Made by a program: the position numbers and the translations under genes
Notes under the pieces: generated by a model
What the model was told of the DNA's origin: nothing
The model's database searches: none
What the model saw: the letters and a program-made list of their open reading frames with translations, nothing else
From: a virus
DNA: 25,960 bases
Direction: 5' to 3' (one strand)
Virus record (IMG/VR): IMGVR_UViG_3300025174_000101
Coordinates: 1-25,960 of that record
Part shown: positions 1 to 18,591 of the stretch, in pieces
Position numbering within the stretch: position 1 is the stretch's first letter
How the letters are laid out: each line of letters begins with the position of its first letter

Positions 1-2725
1 GGAGCGGTGGGGGTGTTGCTGGTATGCCAGCCGAGCCAGTGCGCGGCACTTTCACTTCGCCGGGCACGATGGTGCCGATGAGCCGACCAATGGCCTTGAA
101 AAAGCCCGCTACTGCCAACTCGGACAGTTTAGCTATAAGTGCATCAACCATGTTGCTAAAAATCGATTGTATCTTGCCGGAAAAGTTTTGCGCATCCTGT
201 TCCATGAGGCCCAGAGTTTGTCTGAACCCAGCAACTAGCACATCTGTGGTAGCGCCTTCCAGTTTGGTGCGGAACACCTCGGCGATCTTTGATGCGCCCA
301 CACCGGCCGCATCCTCGGCACCCTTAAGATCTTTCTCTAGGCGCTGCACCTCTAGCTGGATCTTCACGTCGTGAGTCTCAGCCGCAAGCTTCTTGATGTC
401 CTCCAGCAACTGCCGGGCAAGCTGCAGCTGACCCAACTCGATGTGCGCCTCGGCCTCGATGCGCAAGCTACGCGCCTGCTCTAGCGGTCCCAGCTCACGC
501 AAGAGATCGAGCAGGCGCTGACGCTGCGCGGCAAGGGTCGCCCCAAGCGTCACATCCAGCACGAGTGCGCTTTGACCAACAGCGAGGAGCACCTGGCCCA
601 GTTGATCATAGGCAGCCACCAGCTCGGCCGGCTCGCGGCGGGCCGCTACGGCGTCGAGCGCCGCCCCCAGGCGGTCGAGCGCCTGCTCTCCCGCCTGCCC
701 GCTTGCCAGGAGCGCCTGCGTGTCCAGGATCACCGCCGACGGCGCCCCGGCTTGTTCTTGGAGCGACCGCACTGTCGCCGCCAGCCGGTCGAGCGCCGCC
801 TGCGCGGTCTCTGTCTGTAGGCGCACATTGGCCTCGATGTCCGGCAGCTTGATCTGCACGCGGCGCTGCTCGACCAACTGCCGGGCCTGAGCAAGCGTCG
901 CCAGCAAGGAATCCGCGCTGGCCACGAGCGACACATCCACCACGGCCTTGTCGCTGGCTTCCTTAAACTGCTCCTCCAGGATGCGCAGGATCTCCGCCAG
1001 CTCTTCCTCGGTCTGGGCGCGGTTGATGCGTAGCGCGACTGTCTGTTGTAGCAAGCCGCTCCTGCTGAGCACATCTAGCTGGGCCTGCACTGCTGCAATC
1101 TCGCGGCGCAGCTCCTCGGCCCTGGCAAGCGTCGTTCCCAGCTCGATGCCGACTTCTCCAGCGTCTCGCAAGGCCAGCAGCTGCTCTTCTACTGTGGCCA
1201 ACTCAGCTTGAAGATCCTGTAGGCGTGAGCGGTCGGCCTGGATCAGTACGGGTTGCTCGACCGTAGCCTTGAAGGCTTGGAAGTCCCGCAATGCCTGCTG
1301 GAAATCCGGCGTGCCCTTGACGAGCACGTCCAGTGTCTCGGCGCCCCTGAGTTGCCGGATGGCATCCTGTAGCGCCGTGGCAGCCTGGGTTGCTTGCACG
1401 GCCACCTTGACGGGGATGCCTTCGGCCGCGATGGCGCGCATCTGTTCTATGACGCGCAGGAACTCCTGGCTTGCAGCTGCGCCGCTCGACTTAACTACCT
1501 CATCCAGGAAAGCGAGCGTGCGTAGCGTCTCGTCCAGATCACCGCGCAGCACCTCGATACGGAACTGCGTCACGATCTCTTGCTCTAGGTTGGCGAAGCG
1601 CTCGCGGAAGATGCGTGCCGCTGTGCCGCTATTCTTCTCGGCTGCCACCGCCAGGGCTTCCAAGTCGCGCACCAGGTCGCGTGTGGCCCGGCTGCCAGAG
1701 GTGCCGAGACCTAGAAAGGCCTGCACGCTGCCGGTCAGACTCCGGGCAAGCTGGGCGAGGCGGGGCAAGACCACGCCGCCGATGGTCTCCCCCAGCTCGC
1801 CCATCGTGTTGCGCAGTTGATCCACGGCACCCGCATAGGTCCGCACGGAGGCTTGCGAGGCGCCGCCGAAGGAGCGGTTGATGCCCTCGAGGGCCGCCTG
1901 GAACCGCTGGCTCTTGGGGAGCGTCTGATCGATGACGATTCCCAGGCGGCCAAAGCCCTCGGTCTCTCCCTGGGCGGCGCGGGCGATGAGGAGCGCCATG
2001 GCGTCAGTTGTGCGGCCCAGGCCCGTGGCTAGATCGAGCGCCGCCTGGGTGGCCTGCTGGAGCGCCGGACCCGAGAGGCGCCCTACCTGCTGGATGAGCG
2101 CAGCGGTGGACTGGACCTGCTCGTCTGAGAAGCGCGTTACAGCGGACTGGGCGGTAGCGAAGCGCTGCATCTCCTGAACGGCAGCCCCAGAGAACCGCCC
2201 GACTGCCTGGAAGCTGAAGGCGAGCTGCGTCTGGGCCTGCTCGGCTTCTGAGGCAGCCCGGATGACACTCCGCACGGTGCGCTCGATGGCGAGGAATCCA
2301 CCCACGGTGGCGGCCGCGCGCAGAGCAAGGCCAGTCAACGCACCGCCGAGATCCTTCGCCGCGGTCGCCGCTGGCCCCAATTGCCCGCCCAGGCCTCGGG
2401 AACGCCGCGCAGCCTCCTCTGTGCCCTTGCCGGCGGCCTCTGCTGCGCCCCGCAGCTTGTCCAGCTCCTCCCGTAGCTTGGCGACCTCCTGCTGTAGCCC
2501 TTCGGGCACAGTGACGCCCAATGGGATAGGCCCGCCCTGCTCAGCTGCCTGGCTGATCGCCTGGGTGACCCGCCCGGTCGTTTCCTCCAGGCGCTCGACG
2601 CCCTGGGAGCCCTCAGCTGCCGCAGGGCCCAGCTCGCGCAGCGCCGCCGTCAGCTCCTCGGTAGCCCGTGCTACCTGGTCAGCGTTCCGGGCGCGAAAGA
2701 TGATCTCTAGGACGTTCTCAGCCAC
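1..2725 (-). CDS. Tail tape measure protein, N-terminal 908 codons (runs off the left edge)
   Basis: This frame is open from a GTG at 2725 to the left edge with no stop seen. The protein is long, Ala/Leu/Glu/Gln-rich and almost entirely helical, beginning VAENVLEIIFRARNADQVAR. It has a more hydrophobic stretch near residues 125-150 (ALTGLALRAAATVGGFLAIE) and another at the very end of the visible part (FFKAIGRLIGTIVP). This composition, together with the position directly after the tube and chaperone genes, is typical of siphovirus tape measure proteins, which set tail length and help DNA pass into the cell. The start codon overlaps the stop of the frameshifted chaperone (2718) by 8 nt; GAGGG lies about 9 nt upstream. 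The C-terminus, where lytic domains often sit, is outside the window. Role call is strong; family membership rests on context and composition. Confidence 0.88.
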   Translation of the reverse strand, partial: MAENVLEIIFRARNADQVARATEELTAALRELGPAAAEGSQGVERLEETTGRVTQAISQAAEQGGPIPLGVTVPEGLQQEVAKLREELDKLRGAAEAAGKGTEEAARRSRGLGGQLGPAATAAKDLGGALTGLALRAAATVGGFLAIERTVRSVIRAASEAEQAQTQLAFSFQAVGRFSGAAVQEMQRFATAQSAVTRFSDEQVQSTAALIQQVGRLSGPALQQATQAALDLATGLGRTTDAMALLIARAAQGETEGFGRLGIVIDQTLPKSQRFQAALEGINRSFGGASQASVRTYAGAVDQLRNTMGELGETIGGVVLPRLAQLARSLTGSVQAFLGLGTSGSRATRDLVRDLEALAVAAEKNSGTAARIFRERFANLEQEIVTQFRIEVLRGDLDETLRTLAFLDEVVKSSGAAASQEFLRVIEQMRAIAAEGIPVKVAVQATQAATALQDAIRQLRGAETLDVLVKGTPDFQQALRDFQAFKATVEQPVLIQADRSRLQDLQAELATVEEQLLALRDAGEVGIELGTTLARAEELRREIAAVQAQLDVLSRSGLLQQTVALRINRAQTEEELAEILRILEEQFKEASDKAVVDVSLVASADSLLATLAQARQLVEQRRVQIKLPDIEANVRLQTETAQAALDRLAATVRSLQEQAGAPSAVILDTQALLASGQAGEQALDRLGAALDAVAARREPAELVAAYDQLGQVLLAVGQSALVLDVTLGATLAAQRQRLLDLLRELGPLEQARSLRIEAEAHIELGQLQLARQLLEDIKKLAAETHDVKIQLEVQRLEKDLKGAEDAAGVGASKIAEVFRTKLEGATTDVLVAGFRQTLGLMEQDAQNFSGKIQSIFSNMVDALIAKLSELAVAGFFKAIGRLIGTIVPGEVKVPRTGSAGIPATPPPL

Positions 2726-2897
2726 GCGTCGCGGCCCTCAGCTTCTCGAGCTCCATGGCGTAGGCCTGCATGCACAGGATATCGAACACCATGCGATCCC
2801 CCGGCACCCATTCACCCGGCCGATCCAGCCGGTTCCATGCCCACTCGTGCGGCGCCCTCCCGTAGCTCACTGCTAGCTGGTGATACATCGCCAGTTC
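2718..2897 (-). CDS. Tail assembly chaperone, downstream (frameshifted) part
   Basis: An open frame of 59 codons, in the +1 frame relative to the chaperone gene, encodes ELAMYHQLAVSYGR followed by APHEWAWNRLDRPGEW and ends at the TGA at 2718. It reads as real protein (YH, HEWAW, ELEKL) whereas the zero-frame tail over the same DNA is low-complexity. No start with a Shine-Dalgarno is available: ATG 2888 and a later GTG both lack one. In most tailed phages the two chaperone parts between tube and tape measure genes are joined by programmed frameshifting, giving a short and a long form that bind the tape measure protein. Here the joined product would be 200 + 59 = 259 residues. The coding call is firm; the frameshift mechanism is inferred. 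Confidence 0.75.
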   Translation of the reverse strand, partial: ELAMYHQLAVSYGRAPHEWAWNRLDRPGEWVPGDRMVFDILCMQAYAMELEKLRAATRG

Positions 2898-3498
2898 GGG
2901 GACCGCGAAACTTGCGCACCACGCCAGTAAAGGCGCCTGCCCCTTCGTTCAAGTCGTGCACCAGGCGTGCTGCGCACTCGTCTACGAGCCCAGAACCCAA
3001 ACGGTCGAGCTGGTCCAGCGTGATTTCCCACTTGCCGTTGTCAGCCGTGGCGCCTGTATCCAGCACCCGCACACCTTGCCAGCGTGTCTTTCCGAGCCCC
3101 GCATCCCAGACGCGCACCGCCTGCAGCGTCGCCTGGACCAATCGGCAGGCCCATCGGTGCGTCTCTTCGCGCTCCGTACGGCTAGGTGATGGGCTATCGG
3201 CTTGCAGCACAGGCAAACCCGTGGGTAAGCCCCGTTCATCCAGGAAGCTCGACCACTCATGGTTGGCCAGCTGGCGCAGGCGAACACCCCTAGGTGTACC
3301 GTCCGGGTAACCGCCTATGAATCCATTGCAGGGACAGGGACCAACTGCTCCGTTGGCAAACCGCGCTTGTGATTCTGCGCATTGACCCACTACGTGCAGT
3401 TCGATAGCGTGCTCGCAAGCCCCGCAGGGGTACCACACGTCCACCATGGGCACGCCCAGGGCAGTGAAGATGTCGCCAGTTCCGTTCTCGTCACTCAT
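2812..3498 (-). CDS. Tail assembly chaperone, upstream frame
   Basis: The protein is 228 residues in the zero frame, starting at ATG 3498 (MSDENGTGDIFTALG) after an AGGGGAAG purine stretch; the frame is open further upstream but that part is low-complexity Arg/Ser-rich and overlaps the tube gene, so it is not coding. The N-terminal third carries two CxxC-like pairs (YPCGACEH near residue 28 and CPCNGF near residue 55), which could bind a metal. The C-terminal part is amphipathic helix. Its place between the tube genes and tape measure gene, plus the overlapping +1 ORF, identifies it as the short form of the tail assembly chaperone (lambda gpG-like role). After the proposed shift at codon 200 it would continue into the ORF ending at 2718. 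The sequence itself is not a family I can name. Confidence 0.72.
   Translation of the reverse strand: MSDENGTGDIFTALGVPMVDVWYPCGACEHAIELHVVGQCAESQARFANGAVGPCPCNGFIGGYPDGTPRGVRLRQLANHEWSSFLDERGLPTGLPVLQADSPSPSRTEREETHRWACRLVQATLQAVRVWDAGLGKTRWQGVRVLDTGATADNGKWEITLDQLDRLGSGLVDECAARLVHDLNEGAGAFTGVVRKFRGPRTGDVSPASSELREGAARVGMEPAGSAG
2896..2904 (-). other. Candidate +1 ribosomal frameshift site (GGT CCC CGA)
   Basis: On the minus strand the zero frame reads GGT CCC CGA. A peptidyl-tRNA on CCC can move one base forward and re-pair with CCC, after which the next codon is GAA, in the frame that encodes the downstream chaperone part. CCC-N runs followed by a slow codon or a stop are known +1 shift sites in some phage tail genes, and CGA is a slowly decoded codon in many bacteria. 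No -1 heptamer of the X XXY YYZ type is needed, because the required shift is +1 (or -2). Confidence 0.55.
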
Positions 3499-3610
3499 CT
3501 TTCTTCCCCTCGCGCTAAAAGAGCGAGCCACACTGCACGCCCGGGTCGAACACGAGGGGTCTCCGGCCGGTGGGCAGGTGGCTCGCGTGGGTGTCGCTCT
3601 AACCCCTCGT
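3499..3610 (-). promoter_or_regulatory. Intergenic structured leader of the chaperone gene
   Basis: This is 112 nt of non-coding DNA between the second tube gene and the chaperone. It holds interleaved perfect inverted repeats: GCGAGCCAC at 3523-3531 with GTGGCTCGC at 3578-3586, and ACGAGGGGT at 3552-3560 with ACCCCTCGT at 3602-3610. A third copy, CCCCTCG at 3506-3512, can also pair with 3553-3559. On the minus-strand RNA this third copy is the GGGG ribosome-binding region just before the chaperone ATG. The pairings compete, so the leader could switch between an exposed and a hidden ribosome-binding site. Structure is seen in the sequence; function is inferred. Confidence 0.5.
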
Positions 3611-4876
3611 CTAGAGCAACGTCGAGTGCGGCTCATTGCCCCCTGTCGTGGCAGGCGTGTTGAACTTCGCTGATCCGTCATCTCCATCCGCCACTTGCGC
3701 GGCGATGAGGAGTGGCACCTTGTAGACGGTGGGCGGGGCCCAAGTGGCGCCGCCGATGCTGCCGCGGAACCACCGCTCGGCCCAGCGGAAAGTGAGCGCG
3801 GCGCCTGACTCGATTGGATTCTGCGCTTCCGAGACCACACCGGCATTAGTTGCGATCTCAAAGGCATAGGGCACATTGTTGGCTGCGTCAGCCAATGGCG
3901 TAAGAGGTGAGTGCGTGGCACCAGTAGGTGCGCTAATCCATCGCAAGCGGCGAATACCTGAGACCGTAGCGCCCGCAACGAATTCCCAGTAAACCTGTCC
4001 GCCTGACACATCTAGCGATTCCTGCTCCAGCAACGAAACGTAGTTGCTGCCAGCCTCTACTGCCGCCACGTGGCCCACGTTGTTGTCCGTATCAAAGCTA
4101 GTCGCGTAACGCGGCGGGAACTCGATCTTGTTATCGAAGCGCAGCGTGAATTCGCGCAAGTTGCGAACATTGACGAGCGCACCACCCTCGCTGATGCTGG
4201 CCAGCACCGGGTGCGTGTTGTCCTTGCTCAAGTCGAGCGGCTTGACGAAGTACCTGTTGGATTGCATGGCGATGGGCGTCACGCCCACCCCGGACAGCCG
4301 CGTCGGCTCCGGCCCCAGCACATCCCAGAGCGCTGTCAGCCATCCATCTGCGTCCTGCTGGATGGTGCAACCGACGATGCGCGCGCCCAGGATCTTCTCA
4401 ATGGTCCCGGCGGTGGTATCGGGGCCCATCTTGCTGATCCGTAGGGCAAGGCCATAGGTCAATGCGCTCCTGCTCCCGTCCAGGTCCATCTTGTAGCTCT
4501 GCGGGATGTACCAGTGCGCACTGGTCGTTGGTGTCGCACCAGGCGCTGTCACGCCATTCAATAGGCGGTCTGCCGTCCGGCCCTCAAGACCACCCATGAG
4601 CTGGCACAAGAGAATGTGGAAAAACGTTGCGTTGTAGTAGACGAGCGTGCGGAACTGCCCGCGCCACCTACCGGCGCCGTAATCCAGCGTCTTGATGGCC
4701 CCTACGGCCGCGATCTCGGACGATGCCGCGAGCTGTGCGCGCTCGAGCCGCATGGTCTCGCCGGCAAACGGCACACGGAAGTACGCGCTGGGATACGACG
4801 GATCGTCTGCAGCCGAGATGCGCGCGGCGATCTCAAGCGCCACGAAGGTCTGGCTGCCATGGATGATAGTCGGCAC
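3611..4876 (-). CDS. Second tail tube-like protein (paralogue of the gene ending at 4889)
   Basis: The protein is 421 residues, starting at GTG 4876 (GTG CCG ACT ATC ATC) behind GGGGGTGAAC. It shares the opening MPTI[IV]HG with the neighbouring upstream protein and keeps matching blocks in the same order: GETMRLE versus RETMHLE, HWYIP versus HWYLP, SKMGPDTTAG versus WKSGPSAAG, and FTLRFDNK versus FTLNVDRH. The two are therefore tandem paralogues. The protein is beta-rich, as expected of phage tail tube subunits that stack as hexamers around the tape measure. It has about 55 extra residues compared with its partner. Possible roles are a second tube subunit, a tube cap or a specialised terminal ring protein; the sequence does not decide between them. 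Confidence 0.65.
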   Translation of the reverse strand: MPTIIHGSQTFVALEIAARISAADDPSYPSAYFRVPFAGETMRLERAQLAASSEIAAVGAIKTLDYGAGRWRGQFRTLVYYNATFFHILLCQLMGGLEGRTADRLLNGVTAPGATPTTSAHWYIPQSYKMDLDGSRSALTYGLALRISKMGPDTTAGTIEKILGARIVGCTIQQDADGWLTALWDVLGPEPTRLSGVGVTPIAMQSNRYFVKPLDLSKDNTHPVLASISEGGALVNVRNLREFTLRFDNKIEFPPRYATSFDTDNNVGHVAAVEAGSNYVSLLEQESLDVSGGQVYWEFVAGATVSGIRRLRWISAPTGATHSPLTPLADAANNVPYAFEIATNAGVVSEAQNPIESGAALTFRWAERWFRGSIGGATWAPPTVYKVPLLIAAQVADGDDGSAKFNTPATTGGNEPHSTLL

Positions 4877-4888
4877 TTGTTCACCCCC

Positions 4889-5989
4889 TTACGACTGGAC
4901 GACGTTGCCGGCGTCCACAGTAAAGTGATCGTCTAGATCCACTGTGTCAGCCACAAAGACGCCGATGCGTGCGTCCATGTTGCCATGCGCGGGCGTGGCA
5001 GTCGCACCCTCGATGGCCTGGAATGTATGGCTCACGGGGTTGTTGCCGGCCTCCTTGACGCTATCATCGCCGGCGATCCAACTGACGCTAGGGAAATCCA
5101 GGTCCATGGCGTACACTTGTCCGGCTGCCGCCACTACGGTATCGCGTAGTCGAATGCGGCATTTGCTCGCCGTGCGGTTCAAGTACTCGGTCGCTGGTTG
5201 GCCGCTAGCTGCGAAGTCTTGCGTCAGCAAGCCCAGCACCTCGCACGTCACCGTGCGGTTCTCCGTGGGCCCCGGCTGGTTTGCCGTGTCGATGCTGTTC
5301 ATGAACGCAGGATCAGCTGTCACGTGACGGTCCACGTTGAGCGTGAACCCACGCACATCACGATTCGCCAGTGTCGCACCGGTCTGGAAGTTGGCTCCCG
5401 TGTTGGTCAACCACCGTGCCTTGGTCGTGATGGCGCCCGTTGGCGCCGCAGGCGAGCCCGTTACGTCGGTATCCACTTCCGTGGCTGCCACGAAAGCGAT
5501 GGTAACTGTGGCCAACCCATCCGGCGGCAGCTCGAATCGGAAGCTCGTCACAATACAGCCGCGGAACTCTGCCCAGCGGCCCGCAGCACTCGGCCCTGAC
5601 TTCCACACACGTATGGCCATACTGCGGCCTACGTTGTTCGGCAAGTACCAGTGCGAGTTGCCGCCTGTGGCAACTGTATCGTCGAGGAAGGTGTTAAGCA
5701 CACGGCGCTCCTCGCCGAACACATGGCCGAGCAAGAAGTTGAACCAGCTACCGTCGATGCGTGGATTGAAGACCAGCTCTCCAGTACCGCGCTTGTTCAG
5801 CACCTCGACCAGCGTCTGGCTGCCGATGCTGCCGAACTCCGGGCTAGGGGGCACCTGGTCGTATTCCAGGTGCATCGTCTCCCGGATGACTGGCACCCCG
5901 ATGAAGCTGCCGGTACCCGTCTGGTAGGCGCTCTCGTCCCGGATCTCGACTCCGGTAAAGGCATCATTGCCGTGTACGATTGTCGGCAC
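4889..5989 (-). CDS. Major tail (tube) protein
   Basis: The protein is 366 residues, starting at GTG 5989 after a strong GGAGGTGGTAACAG ribosome-binding site, among the best in the tail module. It is beta-rich, with many Thr, Val, Ala and Gly residues, and ends in an Ig-like, low-charge region. It sits after the tail terminator-like gene and before the chaperone and tape measure genes, the usual place for the tube protein. It is longer than simple tube proteins (often 140-250 residues), so extra decoration domains are likely. The following gene (4876-3611) is a diverged copy of it. The strong ribosome-binding site fits a product needed in many copies. Assignment rests on synteny and composition rather than on a recognised motif. 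Confidence 0.68.
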   Translation of the reverse strand: MPTIVHGNDAFTGVEIRDESAYQTGTGSFIGVPVIRETMHLEYDQVPPSPEFGSIGSQTLVEVLNKRGTGELVFNPRIDGSWFNFLLGHVFGEERRVLNTFLDDTVATGGNSHWYLPNNVGRSMAIRVWKSGPSAAGRWAEFRGCIVTSFRFELPPDGLATVTIAFVAATEVDTDVTGSPAAPTGAITTKARWLTNTGANFQTGATLANRDVRGFTLNVDRHVTADPAFMNSIDTANQPGPTENRTVTCEVLGLLTQDFAASGQPATEYLNRTASKCRIRLRDTVVAAAGQVYAMDLDFPSVSWIAGDDSVKEAGNNPVSHTFQAIEGATATPAHGNMDARIGVFVADTVDLDDHFTVDAGNVVQS

Positions 5990-6043
5990 CTGTTACCACC
6001 TCCCCACCACCACAGCCGCCGCCCCAGGTCCCAGGCGCCGACG

Positions 6044-6514
6044 TTAGATAGTCGTTCCCGCCATGTAGTGGTAATCGGCCACCACATGGACCGCCACGAA
6101 GGCCACGTCTCCAGCCGGATCATAGGCCGGTTGCGCGACACGTGCGATGTGTGCGCGCTGCACCTTGTTGTTGAGCGTGGGCGTCTGTCCCACGCGTTTG
6201 TTCACGTCCGCGATCAGCCGGTTGAGACGCTGCCGCGGGGGCTCGTCGCGCGAGCCCCGGAGCATCAAGTCCAGCACTAGCTCCAGCAGCACCTCGCGTT
6301 CGGTGTCAGGCGATACAAAAATTGCCTTGTGCTCCTCGGTGCCCTCCTGCACCTGCACGTGCACCGATTGCGTGGATTCCACCCGCAAGCTGCGCGTCAG
6401 CACGCCCTGATCCACTGCTCCAGGTGGCGAGAGATCGAAACTGAATCCCGCGGCAGGCGTAATGCCTTGCAGAATGGTCACGAGCGCGTCGAGCGCGTCT
6501 TGCCGAATGCTCAC
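6044..6514 (-). CDS. Tail terminator / minor tail protein U-like
   Basis: The protein is 156 residues, starting at GTG 6514, which overlaps the previous stop (GTGA). It begins with a helix SIRQDALDALVTILQGI and contains alternating beta strands and a central charged helix (EREVLLELVLDLMLRG), the layout of tail terminator proteins that cap the tube and join it to the head. It lies between the HK97 gp10-like gene and the tube gene, as in lambda-like and HK97-like phages. No motif is decisive. A 54-nt gap follows before the tube gene, one of the longer spacers in the block. Confidence 0.62.
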   Translation of the reverse strand: MSIRQDALDALVTILQGITPAAGFSFDLSPPGAVDQGVLTRSLRVESTQSVHVQVQEGTEEHKAIFVSPDTEREVLLELVLDLMLRGSRDEPPRQRLNRLIADVNKRVGQTPTLNNKVQRAHIARVAQPAYDPAGDVAFVAVHVVADYHYMAGTTI

Positions 6515-6699
6515 GTGTTGCGCCCTTCCATCGTTTCCGCCACATCATGAAGCTGATCTGCCAGCTTGCGGACTAGGCTAGACTGCTGCGCATCGCCGCG
6601 GCTCCCGTGGTACACTTCCACGATGCCGTGCAGGACGTGCTCGCACTCAGCCAGCCGCCCGGCGATCTCGTAGACCTTGGCAATCTCATCGGCTGTCAC
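6511..6699 (-). CDS. Small helical protein in the head-tail junction module
   Basis: The protein is 62 residues, starting at GTG 6699 within the previous gene's stop (GTGA overlap) behind AGGGGG. It is mostly charged helix (MTADEIAKVYEIAGRLAEC) with one Cys and several His residues. It is translationally coupled on both sides. I do not recognise a family. Its position between the gp10-like and terminator-like genes suggests a virion-assembly role, but no function should be assigned. Confidence 0.62.
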   Translation of the reverse strand: MTADEIAKVYEIAGRLAECEHVLHGIVEVYHGSRGDAQQSSLVRKLADQLHDVAETMEGRNT

Positions 6700-7379
6700 A
6701 GGAACCCCCTAGCTAGGCGCTTGGTCAGAAGCGCTAGCACAGCTGGCGTCTTGTCCCTGACGCTCCGCTCTAGGTACAGGTGCCCCCTGATCTTCATGAA
6801 CCGCCCATGCGCGCGCACCTGCACGAGACCTCCACCACCATCCAGTCGGCCGCTCAAAGGCTCGATGTTGCCCTGCAGGCCGCGCATGCGGCGGGCGGCG
6901 CGGGCGAGCTGCTGCTGCTTCCTGACACCCACGCCATGGGCCGCACGTGAGCGGCGCTCCCTGTTCTCGTGGGCCTCGCGCTTGCGTCGCACCTCACCAC
7001 GCCGGCGCAGCTTGGCCTGCGTGCCACGCACCGGAGCCAGCCTCCGGCGCTGCCCTGGTCGCCGCAGGTGCTCCTTGACCCATACAGGGCCGCTGAAGCC
7101 GTAGTTGTGCACGCGGGCGTACTTGACGCGTGTACCCAAGATAACCGTAGCCGCATCCAGCGTCCCCGGTACACGTTGCGGTCGCCAGCCACCGCGCAGA
7201 CGGCCAGTTTTGCCTACGTAAAGCGGTCCACTAGTCAAATAGGTCTCCACCATGTGCGTGCGCACGAGCTCGGCGCCCTCGAACAGCGCCTGCTCAGTTT
7301 CCGGCCCCAAGCGGCCAACGAAAAGCCCCAGCTTATGGGTGATCTCCTGCAGGCCAGTGATCTCGACCGCTTGGGCCAC
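6696..7379 (-). CDS. HK97 gp10-like tail completion protein with Arg-rich insertion
   Basis: The protein is 227 residues, starting at GTG 7379 directly after the previous stop. The first 100 residues follow the HK97 gp10 pattern: ITGLQEITHKLG, then a helix GAELVRTHMVETY, SGPLYVGKTGRLRGGW, and ILGTRVKYARVHNYG. Members of this family act at the head-tail joint and tail completion. Residues about 105-170 form a very basic stretch (many Arg, with some Lys) not usual in gp10; it could contact DNA or the tube lumen. The C-terminus returns to KIRGHLYLERSVRDKTPAV, the typical C-terminal helix of the family. The pattern is recognised by eye. Confidence 0.78.
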   Translation of the reverse strand: MAQAVEITGLQEITHKLGLFVGRLGPETEQALFEGAELVRTHMVETYLTSGPLYVGKTGRLRGGWRPQRVPGTLDAATVILGTRVKYARVHNYGFSGPVWVKEHLRRPGQRRRLAPVRGTQAKLRRRGEVRRKREAHENRERRSRAAHGVGVRKQQQLARAARRMRGLQGNIEPLSGRLDGGGGLVQVRAHGRFMKIRGHLYLERSVRDKTPAVLALLTKRLARGFL

Positions 7380-8015
7380 TTAGATCAGGCCCCCCTTGTT
7401 GGCATACCGCTCGAACACGGCCGCCGCTGATCCTGGGATGGTCGTAAAGGTGTAGCTCGTGGCTCCAGACTCATCGCTCTCGCTCGTCTGGTCCAGGCGC
7501 TCACCTGCGGCGCGCCGCCACTCAATCGACATCCACTGCAGGAGCGCATGCTTTACGTCCTCGGGGGCCGCCGTGAAGCCGGCCTGGTAGACGACACGAA
7601 GCGTCTGCTTTCCTGACGGCCAACCGTCATACACGTTGTGCAACAAGGCGGCTTCATCGTCCCGCACGTACTCGCTCGTCGGGTACACGTAATCGCTCAC
7701 CCAGCCGCCAGCTGAGTAGTAACCCCGGGCGATGCTCGTGAAGGCAGCAATGGGCCTGTATGGTAACGCCAGCAGCCAACCGTCCCAGCTGCCATCAAGC
7801 ACTAGATCCCAGTTTGTACTGTTGTGCTTGATGAAGCGCTCGCGCATGCGGTGGTAGGCTGCGCGATTCACGCCATCCACGACCTGCTGCATGCGATTGT
7901 CGTCGGCCGTCTCGCCTTCCTTATCCAAGAAGATTTTGAGCTCGCTCAAGGTCACCAGCTCCAGGTTCGCTTTCGTGACTGCCGGCCCCGCGATGCGCAC
8001 CACATAGGCGCCCAT
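7380..8015 (-). CDS. Head-tail connector protein (HK97 gp6-like)
   Basis: The protein is 211 residues, starting at ATG 8015 after GGAGACTGAC; the start follows the previous stop by one base. LVTLSELKIFLDKEGETADD near residue 21 is followed by a helix with MQQVVDGVNRAAYHRM, the usual opening of gp6/gp15-type connector proteins. WMSIEWRRAAGERL near residue 165 fits the C-terminal helix, and the final third has the TFTTIP type of strand. These proteins form the ring below the portal through which DNA passes. Placement between capsid and gp10-like genes agrees. Confidence 0.8.
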   Translation of the reverse strand: MGAYVVRIAGPAVTKANLELVTLSELKIFLDKEGETADDNRMQQVVDGVNRAAYHRMRERFIKHNSTNWDLVLDGSWDGWLLALPYRPIAAFTSIARGYYSAGGWVSDYVYPTSEYVRDDEAALLHNVYDGWPSGKQTLRVVYQAGFTAAPEDVKHALLQWMSIEWRRAAGERLDQTSESDESGATSYTFTTIPGSAAAVFERYANKGGLI

Positions 8016-8016
8016 G

Positions 8017-8592
8017 TCAGTCTCCGTACATGAAGCGGATCTCCATGTCGTAGGTATTGGTCGTCGTGATGGCCGACGAGACGAAGTCCAACACGATACC
8101 CACGCGCGTTACGGGTCCCATGGCCCACTCGCCGTTAAAGGCGCTGAGCAGGATCATGGCCTGGCTCACGGCATTCAAACCCATGCTGTCGATGATGGGC
8201 GAGTTGGTCGTGTTGAATGTCGGCTGGTTGCGGAGCGTCGTATCGATGCCACCGCTCGCGCCCATGTCGGCAAAGATCGGGAACACCGATGCTGTATCCA
8301 CGATCCTAGGGCTATACTCCTGCGCGAACAAAGGGAACAGATGACACGTGCGCGTCGCAAACGTCTGCGCCTGTCCATTCACGCTCTTGGTTGACTTGAG
8401 CCACACACCCAGGCGCTTCCACCGGCGCAGGTCCTCGCTTAAGATCAGTTCAGTGACGAGCGTCGGGAACCCCGTCTGCGCTACAACTGTGCGTGTGACT
8501 TGGTTGCTGGCGACCAGGAACTTGGTCGTTTGACCAGTGGTCCAGGTAAATGGCCCTGTCCAAGCGTCGCCGATCCTGAATTTTCCGGGCAT
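8017..8592 (-). CDS. Unknown virion-module protein, beta-rich
   Basis: The protein is 191 residues and starts at ATG 8592 immediately after the preceding stop (TAGATG). It is beta-rich with many Thr, Val and aromatic residues and few Lys, as in decoration, stopper or minor structural proteins. No Cys pair, catalytic motif or membrane segment is visible. Its position between the capsid gene and connector gene suggests a capsid decoration or neck component. I do not recognise a family. Confidence 0.7.
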   Translation of the reverse strand: MPGKFRIGDAWTGPFTWTTGQTTKFLVASNQVTRTVVAQTGFPTLVTELILSEDLRRWKRLGVWLKSTKSVNGQAQTFATRTCHLFPLFAQEYSPRIVDTASVFPIFADMGASGGIDTTLRNQPTFNTTNSPIIDSMGLNAVSQAMILLSAFNGEWAMGPVTRVGIVLDFVSSAITTTNTYDMEIRFMYGD

Positions 8593-9057
8593 CTACGCCT
8601 CGGCCTTCTGCCTCTTGGCGTGCTTGTCCCATGCGTACACTTCGCCTGGGGATTCCAGTTGACCTACAATGAGCTGCACGTATCCGGCATTGCTCATGCC
8701 TTGCAGCTTGCGCAGCTCGCGCCGGGTGACCTTGACTGGTGTGCGAGAGGGAACAAGGTAGTTGCCTGGTAACCGTACGGGCCGGTCCTTGTAGGCCTGT
8801 ACGATGACCGGCACTACGCGGTCCCGGTTATCTGTATCCGCTTGCGCGTTGGCAGCGTGTCGTTGGGCCTCCTCAAAGGCCCGTCGATCTTGAGCTGCCT
8901 TCTTGCGGCGCACCTCAAGATCCTGCTCGACCTTCTGGGCTTCGCGTTGCGCTTTCTCTGCTATGAGCTCGAGCGCCCGAAGCTGGCTTACGTCTTGAGC
9001 AGCCGCCAACTCCTGGGCCACATCGGGCTCCTTGTCGTCCTTGGCTCGTGCAGCCAC
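8593..9057 (-). CDS. Coiled-coil protein following the major capsid gene
   Basis: The protein is 154 residues from GTG 9057, chosen because GGAGG lies 8 nt upstream; the in-frame GTG at 9066 is inside that ribosome-binding site. Residues about 15-80 are a charged heptad-rich helix (LRALELIAEKAQREAQKVEQ) that should form a coiled coil. The C-terminal half has a basic patch (TPVKVTRRELRKLQGMSNAG) and ends KHAKRQKAEA. The order after capsid would fit a decoration or neck protein, but no known family is evident. Confidence 0.7.
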   Translation of the reverse strand: MAARAKDDKEPDVAQELAAAQDVSQLRALELIAEKAQREAQKVEQDLEVRRKKAAQDRRAFEEAQRHAANAQADTDNRDRVVPVIVQAYKDRPVRLPGNYLVPSRTPVKVTRRELRKLQGMSNAGYVQLIVGQLESPGEVYAWDKHAKRQKAEA

Positions 9058-9081
9058 GCTTGCCACCTCCGGGGATGAAGT

Positions 9082-9130
9082 CCCTGGGCAGCGGGTGATG
9101 AAGAGACTTGGGAGCCTCCGCTGCCCAGGG
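9082..9130 (-). terminator. Strong hairpin after the capsid gene, no U-tract
   Basis: CCCTGGGCAGCGG at 9082-9094 pairs perfectly with CCGCTGCCCAGGG at 9118-9130, giving a 13-bp GC-rich stem and a 23-nt loop. It lies in the 110-nt gap between the capsid stop (9168) and the next start (9057). No run of T follows on the minus strand, so it is not a classical intrinsic terminator. It may instead protect the capsid mRNA 3' end or weaken read-through. The structure is certain; the role is inferred. Confidence 0.6.
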
Positions 9131-9167
9131 TACCCGCCGTGCTGCTGGCGGAATTTTGCAATGCCTC

Positions 9168-10796
9168 CTAGGCCGCGAGGTTGCGCCGGATATCCAGCGG
9201 CACCGTCAACGACGCAGCGAAAATCTCGTTCGCATCCACGGCCTCGAACGGCACGAAGTCCATGAACCCCACCGCTTGAATGATCGTCGTGAGCATCGGT
9301 GCAATGCGTGTCGTCTCGATGCCTACGATGCCGAGTTGTCCGAGCCCGAAGCGCTTCACGTTGGCCAGCACTGCTGCCGTCGTGGTCCCCGCGGCCGTCG
9401 AGAATCCCGTGGTCGCGTCCAGGTCATTCGGAATCCACTCGGTTGGGCTGATGGGGATGTTCCAGACCTTGGCGACCATCCCTGTCTGAATTGCCGCCTG
9501 GGGGCCGAAAACATCCACAGTGCGCACGTACGGATCGTCAAGCAGATCGAACAGAGGCCCTGTATTGACCCATAGATGCAGATCGTCGGCCGACAGTCCA
9601 AAGTGCTTCATGCGTTTGATCATGTCCTTGATCTCTACGGCATCCAAAGTGCCACCGCCGCCGCTCGTCATGTAGTTGGCCCCAATGCGGCGGAAGCCGT
9701 TCCAGAGGTGCCGCGCGTCGCGCACGCCGAAGTTGTTGGCGTGGTCGTCCATGTGCTCCACGCCGGTCGCCCGGCCCTGGATATCACCCGACATCGTCGA
9801 GCGGTCCACAGCGCGTGCATGCGCAAATGAGATCATGTCGCGCAGGTACGGCACGAGCGGTACCGCCGATTCCATCGGTGCCCGGTCGTTCCACCATAGG
9901 AAGGCTCCGACGTTCTCGCAGTCGAAATCAGCCGTGCCAAAGCTGATGGTGCCGAACAACGCCGCGTTGGGGATGCTCGTCGTGATGTTTGCTGTGGGCG
10001 GTGGATCGGTCGTCGCAGCACCCAGGCGTACGCCAATTGCATCGCCACGGTTCACCGGCAGCTTCTGGTTCGTATGTACCAGCGGAATCTGCACGACCTT
10101 GTCCGCAACGTTCAGCCGGATGCGCACTAGGTCGATGATCTGTGCGCTCACAACGGTGAACGTCAGCGGGTTGACGATGCCACCCGCTTCGGGGTGGATC
10201 AACGTCTGCTTGGCGAACTCCTCGGGCTTGGTATAGCCCCGGGGCTGGATGGCCTTCTCGCTGTCGTAGCCCATGTACTTGACGCAATCCACTACGCGCT
10301 TGTAGTCCGGCCCCACGACAGTCTTGTTGACCGCCACCTCGAAAGCGTTGGGCGCGCCGCCGGCTTTGCAGACCTCGATGGCGGCCTTGAACACGCAAGC
10401 ATCCCATGCGTCCTGGAAGTCCTTGACCAACTCGGAATCGGTGCCACGGAGCATCGGCGAGTTAGGCGACATGTTCAGGATCTCGATGGGCTGGAGCGTC
10501 TGCGAGCCCTTGCGGAACAAACCGCCCTTGCGGCCGGCATACTCCGCTTGCCGCTCAGTCGTCACTGGCTCCGGCGGGTACGATTGCCGTAGCTTCTCGA
10601 CGGCCTGTCCGATGTTGTTGAGGCGCTTCTCCAGGTCCTCATGGCTCTCCCGGAGCGTCTTCTGGCCCTTCTCCACATCCTCTTTGTCCTTGCGGGCGAG
10701 CTGCACGAGCCCATGGAGGCCCTTCGTCAGGTCCTCCATGGAGGCGCTTTTGATTTGCTCCTCCGTCAAGGGTTCCTTGCTCAACAGGTCCGGCAC
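9168..10796 (-). CDS. Major capsid protein (HK97 fold) with N-terminal scaffold-like domain
   Basis: The protein is 542 residues, starting at GTG 10796 after GAGGGATT. Residues about 10-75 are a charged coiled-coil helix (LARKDKEDVEKGQKTLRESH), matching the delta/scaffold domain of HK97-type capsid proteins that the prohead protease removes after assembly. The mature part follows with typical features: EEFAKQTLIHPEAGGIVNP near residue 190, VKVWNIP-like strands late in the protein and a final GIVGIETTRIAPM strand segment. It directly follows the protease gene. The length exceeds HK97 gp5 (385 residues), so insertion domains are likely. The family call rests on order and overall layout. Confidence 0.85.
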   Translation of the reverse strand: MPDLLSKEPLTEEQIKSASMEDLTKGLHGLVQLARKDKEDVEKGQKTLRESHEDLEKRLNNIGQAVEKLRQSYPPEPVTTERQAEYAGRKGGLFRKGSQTLQPIEILNMSPNSPMLRGTDSELVKDFQDAWDACVFKAAIEVCKAGGAPNAFEVAVNKTVVGPDYKRVVDCVKYMGYDSEKAIQPRGYTKPEEFAKQTLIHPEAGGIVNPLTFTVVSAQIIDLVRIRLNVADKVVQIPLVHTNQKLPVNRGDAIGVRLGAATTDPPPTANITTSIPNAALFGTISFGTADFDCENVGAFLWWNDRAPMESAVPLVPYLRDMISFAHARAVDRSTMSGDIQGRATGVEHMDDHANNFGVRDARHLWNGFRRIGANYMTSGGGGTLDAVEIKDMIKRMKHFGLSADDLHLWVNTGPLFDLLDDPYVRTVDVFGPQAAIQTGMVAKVWNIPISPTEWIPNDLDATTGFSTAAGTTTAAVLANVKRFGLGQLGIVGIETTRIAPMLTTIIQAVGFMDFVPFEAVDANEIFAASLTVPLDIRRNLAA

Positions 10797-17244: not shown

Positions 17245-17643
17245 CTACTGGTTATGCGACGAGCGTATCGCAGTCCACTCTGCTGGCGGTCTGCTCTCGC
17301 AACCTGCCAGGCCAGGGTTGACTGCAAGCAAGCCTAACAGGACATCAGCGTCCCAGGCGGCCATTATCATGTACTGCGCATATTCCCCCTGGATCCTGCC
17401 GTCTACGATGGAAGCAGGGCCCCAGAAATATGGGCAAACCGCTATCTCCTGGCAGCAAGCAGGGCCAAAGTCTTTTATGAACAGCTCAGCATAGGCTTGC
17501 GATCCCTCAACGATGAGAAACCCATAGACGCTGTCCAGGTTGTCCTGCACGAGCCAGACCCCATCCCTCGAGGCCGGCGCATAGGGCGGACTACCGTCAC
17601 AAGCCAGCGCCAAGCAAGAGGCAAGGAGCAACTGTTTCGTCAT
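17245..17643 (-). CDS. Small predicted lipoprotein
   Basis: The protein is 132 residues from ATG 17643 behind GAGGGATGGC, 9 nt after the cytochrome stop. The N-terminus MTKQLLLASCLALACDGSPP is a lipoprotein-type signal: LASC (Cys10) fits the lipobox well, and Cys15 gives a more usual signal length. The mature part has Cys63, Cys64, Cys70 and Cys115, which could form disulfides in the periplasm, and aromatic residues (ELFIKDFGPACC, CPYFWG). No CxxCH is present. The family is not recognised. Close coupling to the cytochrome suggests a joint function or a moron-like unit. Confidence 0.75.
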   Translation of the reverse strand: MTKQLLLASCLALACDGSPPYAPASRDGVWLVQDNLDSVYGFLIVEGSQAYAELFIKDFGPACCQEIAVCPYFWGPASIVDGRIQGEYAQYMIMAAWDADVLLGLLAVNPGLAGCESRPPAEWTAIRSSHNQ

Positions 17644-17652
17644 GCCATCCCT

Positions 17653-18591
17653 CTACAGGTTGCGCAGAAACTCCAGCACCAGTTTGCGGAGTTCTTGCGG
17701 TAAGGCTTGAAACGCGAGCCGTGTGCGCGTGGCATATCCGCCACCATGCAAGAGCACCGCTTGTTCGATGCTCTGGGCGCGGCCATCGTGCAGGAACTGC
17801 GTAGCGAATCGAAGCCCCAGAAGCGGCTCGGTGCGGAACTCCCCGGGCTTGGCATCCAGCAGGCAGATGTCCGCCTGGCCCGTGCCTATGTCATGGAGCA
17901 CCAAGTCCGTGTACCCCCACTCGGGCGCATGGCACCCGGCACAGCCAATGGCAGCGAAGATGAGCCCGCCCAGGATGTTCTTCTTCACGTCGCCCTGTGG
18001 CCGGAGCTCCTGTGCAGCGATGAAAGCCGCCACGGCATCGCTGTCCTGTTCGCTCAACTCCTCGGGCACCTCTATGCCCTGCTCGACCTCGAAGGCGTCG
18101 GCAGTGAACTCGCGCAGGCTGGCGACTTGGGCCTTGCGGCCGAACTTGCCCAGGCGGCCATTAGGCAGGACATGCGGGCGACCACCAGTGAAGCGCCGCC
18201 ACAGGTCGTTGCGTGCGACGATCTCGGTATCGGTTACCAGGTCCATGATGCCGTTACCGAAGAGATCCGGGCTCGTGCGAATGGCCACTACCGCCCCGGC
18301 CGGCGCCGGCACGCCCGGTCCTGCCAATGAGCTGTCCTGCAGGACGGGCCCGCCGAGCACGGGGCGGCAGGGTACCTCCACAAACGCCGCGTGGCGCTCG
18401 GTCTCGTCGCCAGGACCTACACCTGGCGGCATGTGGCAGTTGGCACAGGATCGGCGGTTGAAGAATGGTCCCAGGCCAGTCGCCATGGTGAATTCCTGCT
18501 CAAACAGCTCGCGCCCTCGCGGGTTGGGCTGCGGCTGCATAGGCGAGCAACCGATCACAAGCAGGACTAGGCCGAGCCATCGGGCGTACAT
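17653..18591 (-). CDS. Di-haem c-type cytochrome lipoprotein (DHOR / DUF1111-like oxidoreductase)
   Basis: The protein is 312 residues from ATG 18591, with a strong AAGGAGGCGGC ribosome-binding site. The N-terminus MYARWLGLVLLVIGCSPMQ has a lipobox VIGC (Cys15), so the protein should be exported and lipid-anchored. Two haem c sites are present: SCANCH (Cys49/Cys52/His53) and GCAGCH (Cys217/Cys220/His221). Between them, RTSPDLFGNGIMDLV and LGKFGRKAQVASL match conserved blocks of the di-haem oxidoreductase family (Pfam DHOR, formerly DUF1111, related to MauG and cytochrome c peroxidases). After the second site, YTDLVLHDIGTGQAD, EFRTEPLLGL, FLHDGRAQSIEQAVLLHGG and the closing LRKLVLEFLRNL also match. 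Usual members are 400-500 residues, so this is a compact form. Haem attachment would need the host maturation system. Activity (peroxidase, thiol oxidation, electron transfer) cannot be told. Confidence 0.9.
   Translation of the reverse strand: MYARWLGLVLLVIGCSPMQPQPNPRGRELFEQEFTMATGLGPFFNRRSCANCHMPPGVGPGDETERHAAFVEVPCRPVLGGPVLQDSSLAGPGVPAPAGAVVAIRTSPDLFGNGIMDLVTDTEIVARNDLWRRFTGGRPHVLPNGRLGKFGRKAQVASLREFTADAFEVEQGIEVPEELSEQDSDAVAAFIAAQELRPQGDVKKNILGGLIFAAIGCAGCHAPEWGYTDLVLHDIGTGQADICLLDAKPGEFRTEPLLGLRFATQFLHDGRAQSIEQAVLLHGGGYATRTRLAFQALPQELRKLVLEFLRNL

Follow-up and report, generated by a model that had tools for sequence, protein, structure and literature searches.

Phages obtain two tail products from one gene by -1, -2 or +1 shifts, depending on the phage (review, PMC5009743). 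In lambda (gpG/gpGT) and in other phages with -1 chaperones, the gene lies between the tail tube and tape measure genes and has overlapping frames, and lambda makes a short product plus a fusion in which the second frame supplies a C-terminal domain. The locus described here has the same arrangement and is predicted to yield the same kind of pair. Tail assembly genes that use +1 slips have been described before, so the slip proposed here is another example and not a new mechanism. Among the SEA-PHAGES annotations used to train PRFect, 350 of 2718 positive sites are forward (PMC10885494).

The window, a 25,960-base virus record from an environmental phage, carries its genes mostly on the minus strand. 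Its sister, a 41,273-base contig (IMGVR_UViG_3300002120_000013, here G001), carries the remainder of the tail module. The features considered below, given in window coordinates, are:

4889-5989, minus strand: first tail tube protein, 366 aa (PF18906 Phage_tube_2, E 2e-10; phrog_290, E 3e-11)
3611-4876, minus strand: second tail tube paralogue, 421 aa (weak PF18906 match, E 0.006; 30% identical to the first)
3505-3513, minus strand: Shine-Dalgarno-like site of the zero-frame ORF (GCGAGGGGA, -8.0 kcal/mol)
3498-2812, minus strand: zero-frame ORF, 228 aa, candidate short chaperone (TAC-N)
2948-2718, minus strand: +1-frame open stretch with TGA at 2720-2718; coding part 2897-2721, 59 aa, ELAMYHQ...RAATRG
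2910-2907, minus strand: TTT-C, rival +1 slip site (AAG TTT CGC), inside the most likely interval for the frame change
2901-2898, minus strand: CCC-C, preferred +1 slip site (GGT CCC CGA at 2904-2896, becoming GGT CCC c GAA), inside the same interval
2-2725, minus strand: tape measure protein gene, truncated at the window edge (the G001 copy encodes 1044 aa), called from position and length

The two-frame gene has the major tail protein gene upstream and the tape measure gene downstream, although the tape measure call itself is one of position and length; profile searches with that gene gave no family match. The GTG start of the tape measure gene and the +1 stop lie in an 8-nt overlap. The adjoining tube paralogues (3611-5989, minus strand) suggest a duplicated tube protein. 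Two-frame pairs occupy the same position in seven portal-level relatives (OnionKnight, DPMD02, ctuI7215, GBK2, ctUhy936, PFR1 and PB15), so the layout here follows their habit; their second frame is -1 in all seven. No similarity to known chaperones was found by sequence, profile or fold (Pfam, PHROGs, NCBIfam, PDB, fold comparison and a profile of six relatives). Such genes diverge strongly, and the absence of similarity therefore does not refute the function. The assignment as a chaperone is thus a positional one, made from gene position and layout.

Elsewhere in the structural module, between the terminase and portal genes of both contigs, is a gene for a 312-aa lipoprotein-like di-haem oxidoreductase (window 17653-18591, minus strand; G001 33572-34510). 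It matches PF06537 DHOR (E 4.5e-16) and CCP_MauG (2e-6), has the motifs CANCH and CAGCH, and is followed by a small lipoprotein-like ORF at 17245-17643. A haem enzyme, as predicted from these matches, would be unusual within a phage structural module.

Divergent relatives of the zero frame, the +1 part, the tube, a tube alignment, the terminase, the major capsid protein and the tape measure protein were sought among viral contigs, and none with the chaperone region was found. These searches gave only the sister contig, a chance match and a tape measure relative. The chance match, an unrelated 550-aa protein sharing the peptide AWNRLDRP, was rejected. The tape measure relative (29% identity, positions 251-817 of contig IMGVR_UViG_3300027712_000273) ends before the chaperone region. 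Neither scan of genome contigs gave a relative. The only relative found to carry the +1 slip site is therefore G001, which is near-identical.

Over window positions 1-10588 G001 is 99.77% identical, with about 10 kb at 99.8-99.99%, and no indels occur in these 10,588 bases, which include the two-frame gene; the sequence of that gene is the same in both contigs. Past that point identity is 96.5-97.7%, and the indels there sum to multiples of three, leaving no net frame break in 25.6 kb of alignment. Frame-breaking errors thus look rare. Since the tail regions are almost alike, the two assemblies are not fully independent. The change in identity, from 99.9% to about 95%, falls inside the major capsid gene (window about 10150-10588, minus strand) and points either to a mosaic breakpoint between two phages that occur together or to chimeric assembly. 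There was no Rfam match, and no tRNA gene in the first 40 kb of G001.

The zero-frame protein has no match in Pfam, PHROGs, NCBIfam, PDB or by fold comparison. Its residues 25-57 (window 3328-3426, minus strand) hold a CxxC...C...CxC pattern, and the codon usage of this part is unlike that of the remainder of the gene. The pattern is possibly a metal-binding site. At the other end, the 28 codons past CCC-C have non-coding usage; by codon score this tail ranks among the lowest in-frame segments (0.8th percentile).

Zero and +1 frames overlap over 137 nt (2948-2812). An open frame by itself says little in this GC-rich genome, where 40-50% of out-of-frame stretches 28 codons long have no stop. 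We used codon usage taken from 20 other G001 genes, scored against out-of-frame codons with leave-one-out nulls. The codon signal moves from frame 0 to +1 around 2900-2820 and, from 2725 on, follows the frame of the tape measure gene. For the 59 +1 codons past CCC-C the score is 17.3 log units, which falls within the range of real genes (27th percentile of in-frame segments). None of the 571 open out-of-frame segments from the 20 other genes (0/207 and 0/364), which overlap each other and so are not independent draws, scored as high. Within the 28-codon overlap, the +1 score was attained by only 1.1% and 0.25% of null out-of-frame segments, and the strongest +1 signal lies beyond the overlap, in the last 31 codons. 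The +1 stretch is thus coding in character. Its long starts, ATG 2888 (56 aa) and GTG 2870, have no Shine-Dalgarno site (-2.4 and -0.6 kcal/mol; random median -3.1). The one exception to a second frame lacking its own start is short: ATG 2792 and GTG 2789 (23-24 aa) follow GGGGGA (-8.6 kcal/mol, a value that 95% of random positions do not reach). These results agree with the initial annotation, which gave the zero frame as a 228-residue protein (ORF 3498-2812, minus strand) and the +1 frame as open from before 2897 to 2718 (it is open from 2948) and encoding convincing protein sequence. Its statement that the +1 frame has no usable start is too strong, given the ATG at 2888, although that one lacks a Shine-Dalgarno site, and the GGGGGA ahead of 2792 and 2789.

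Folded alone, the 59-aa part gave a three-helix model with a mean pLDDT of 85.5 in the best of five models, but only one of the five was good. According to PMC13294457, short spurious sequences can score high in fold prediction. The fusion folded poorly (pLDDT 35). The 59-aa part had no match in Pfam, PHROGs, NCBIfam or PDB, and its folds had no significant match; the best viral one, a 59-aa protein of Thermus phage P74-26 (E 2.3, not significant), was rejected. In that phage a 59-aa gene, which may or may not encode the matched protein, sits among lysis genes. A likeness by eye between LAVSYGRAPHEWAW in the +1 stretch and the second-frame motif of the relatives (MCIGLGCSPSDFW in PB15) was unsupported by profile: against a small profile of six relatives' second-frame domains, the +1 stretch ranked 74th of 369.

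By codon likelihood, the best join of the two frames is at codon 196, and codons 194-200 (2919-2901) fall within 3 log units of it. Full +1 re-pairing occurs in the overlap at three sites: GGG-G (2943), which is more than 8 log units worse as a join, TTT-C (2910) and CCC-C (2901). TTT-C beats CCC-C by 1.4 log units, which is not decisive. CCC-C is preferred over TTT-C because its zero-frame A-site codon is rarer. By phage codon counts, the P-site tRNA at CCC-C would re-pair after the +1 move and CGA (5.6 per 1000) is rarer than GAA after the slip (12.0), although these counts come from the phage alone. At TTT-C, the A-site codon CGC is the phage's commonest arginine codon (39 per 1000), and GCG after the slip stands at 34. 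By chance, a 7-codon interval would contain a site with four identical bases and a rarer zero-frame A-site codon with probability 0.018, and any re-pairing site with probability 0.092. In-frame CCCCGA is absent from the 20 other genes, which is weak evidence since about 0.7 are expected. Downstream RNA structure did not exceed that of shuffles (z 0.56 and 0.09), and the upstream sequence, where a Shine-Dalgarno-like stimulating element could lie, was inspected by eye. In E. coli, a CCC-C reporter placed in no special context shows about 0.9% slippage (PMC8324841). The initial annotation had noted GGT CCC CGA in the overlap, with CCC able to re-pair after moving one base, and this is borne out at 2904-2896. 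Placing the slip there is plausible, as the site lies inside the likely interval, but it is not unique. CCC-C as the slip site is therefore plausible and not proven.

Several other explanations were weighed. The +1 slip may be real but occur on TTT-C, three codons upstream, which we consider unlikely but well within reason. The 1.4 log units favor it, as does the TTT to TTC re-pairing, which is the favored mechanism of influenza PA-X (UCC_UUU_CGU, PMC3498833); against it, a slow codon is not expected where the A site holds so common a codon as CGC. Slippage at TTT-C or at CCC-C would read differently at the junction, KF-AVPEL for the former and KFRGP-EL for the latter, with predicted junction peptides FAVPELAMYHQLAVSYGR and FRGPELAMYHQLAVSYGR, respectively. 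The same second frame could also be entered by a -2 slip, as in the tail assembly gene of phage Mu (PMC3498833, PMC5009743), but this is very improbable, as near the likely interval no site re-pairs fully: the two candidates, at 2934 and 2853, would move from GCC to GCG and so change the third position. It is equally hard to credit a slip at the end of the zero frame, on GGG_TGA (2817), helped by the stop codon. Elsewhere +1 slips are indeed aided by stop codons (prfB; Listeria phage tsh CCC_UGA, PMC5009743), and the coding signal is at its strongest in the last 31 codons, but this join is five log units below CCC-C and GGG to GGT re-pairing is poor.

Two explanations dispense with a slip. The main alternative, which we regard as quite unlikely, is that a one-base indel in the C run, whether a real mutation or an assembly error common to both contigs, broke a single 259-codon gene, with no programmed shift. 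CCCC sits at the join, where one base fewer would restore one continuous frame; the 28 zero-frame codons past it look non-coding; and the two contigs, nearly identical over about 10 kb, are not fully independent witnesses. Yet both assemblies show the same state even though they are 2-4% apart elsewhere, their alignment has no net frame-breaking indel in 25.6 kb, and chaperone genes at this position commonly need a shift. Separate production of the +1 stretch by internal initiation or re-initiation, for example at ATG 2792, 20 nt past the zero-frame stop, is improbable. The GGGGGA ahead of ATG 2792 and GTG 2789 and the strong coding signal beyond the overlap speak for it, but the product would have merely 23-24 residues, the upstream part within the overlap also looks coding, and ATG 2888 and GTG 2870 have no Shine-Dalgarno site.

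On the best reading, the gene probably encodes a tail assembly chaperone whose longer form arises by +1 slippage, with CCC-C the preferred site. This is what the initial annotation had proposed, and it is upheld in part: codon usage, position and a long +1 product without a Shine-Dalgarno start support a +1 frame change near 2900, while the identity as a chaperone is positional only. Under the +1 slip at CCC-C, most ribosomes would translate 3498-2812 into the 228-aa short form. A small fraction would pause at the rare CGA with tRNA-Pro on CCC and slip +1, from CCC to CCC. Translation by these ribosomes would carry on in +1 and yield a 259-aa form that ends in a helical domain of 59 residues. 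If the roles are as in lambda gpG/gpGT, the part shared by both forms would coat the tape measure protein, and tube subunits would be recruited by the C-terminal domain. More tentatively, the gene could belong to a chaperone family not sampled before, with a Cys-rich, putatively metal-binding N-terminal part and a +1 slip at CCC-CGA or TTT-CGC that works without RNA structure, in a lineage that switched direction, its portal-level relatives being -1. If confirmed, this would be a clear +1 case in a mostly -1 process, in a phage without a close sequenced relative, and would suggest that slip direction can vary freely although the arrangement in two frames persists.

Unlike the lambda gpG/gpGT type, the gene here would use +1 in place of -1, no sequence similarity to that type was found, and its zero frame is longer (200 residues ahead of the proposed slip), with a Cys-rich N-terminal part. 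The -2 slip of phage Mu leads to the same second frame as here but, unlike in Mu, no -2 re-pairing sequence is present near the join. The forward (+1) sites of SEA-PHAGES are annotated and mostly untested, and are without shown homology to this gene. The rival site, TTT-C (TTT CGC), is of the same kind as UUU_CGU of influenza PA-X (PMC3498833). In the Listeria phages PSA, A118 and A500, tRNA-Pro on CCC slips +1 (cps, tsh), as proposed here, although these are capsid and tail shaft genes, not chaperones, and CCC is followed by UGA or UCC instead of CGA. With its four identical bases and rarer zero-frame A-site codon, CCC-C also agrees with the 'four' motif rule of PRFect (PMC10885494).
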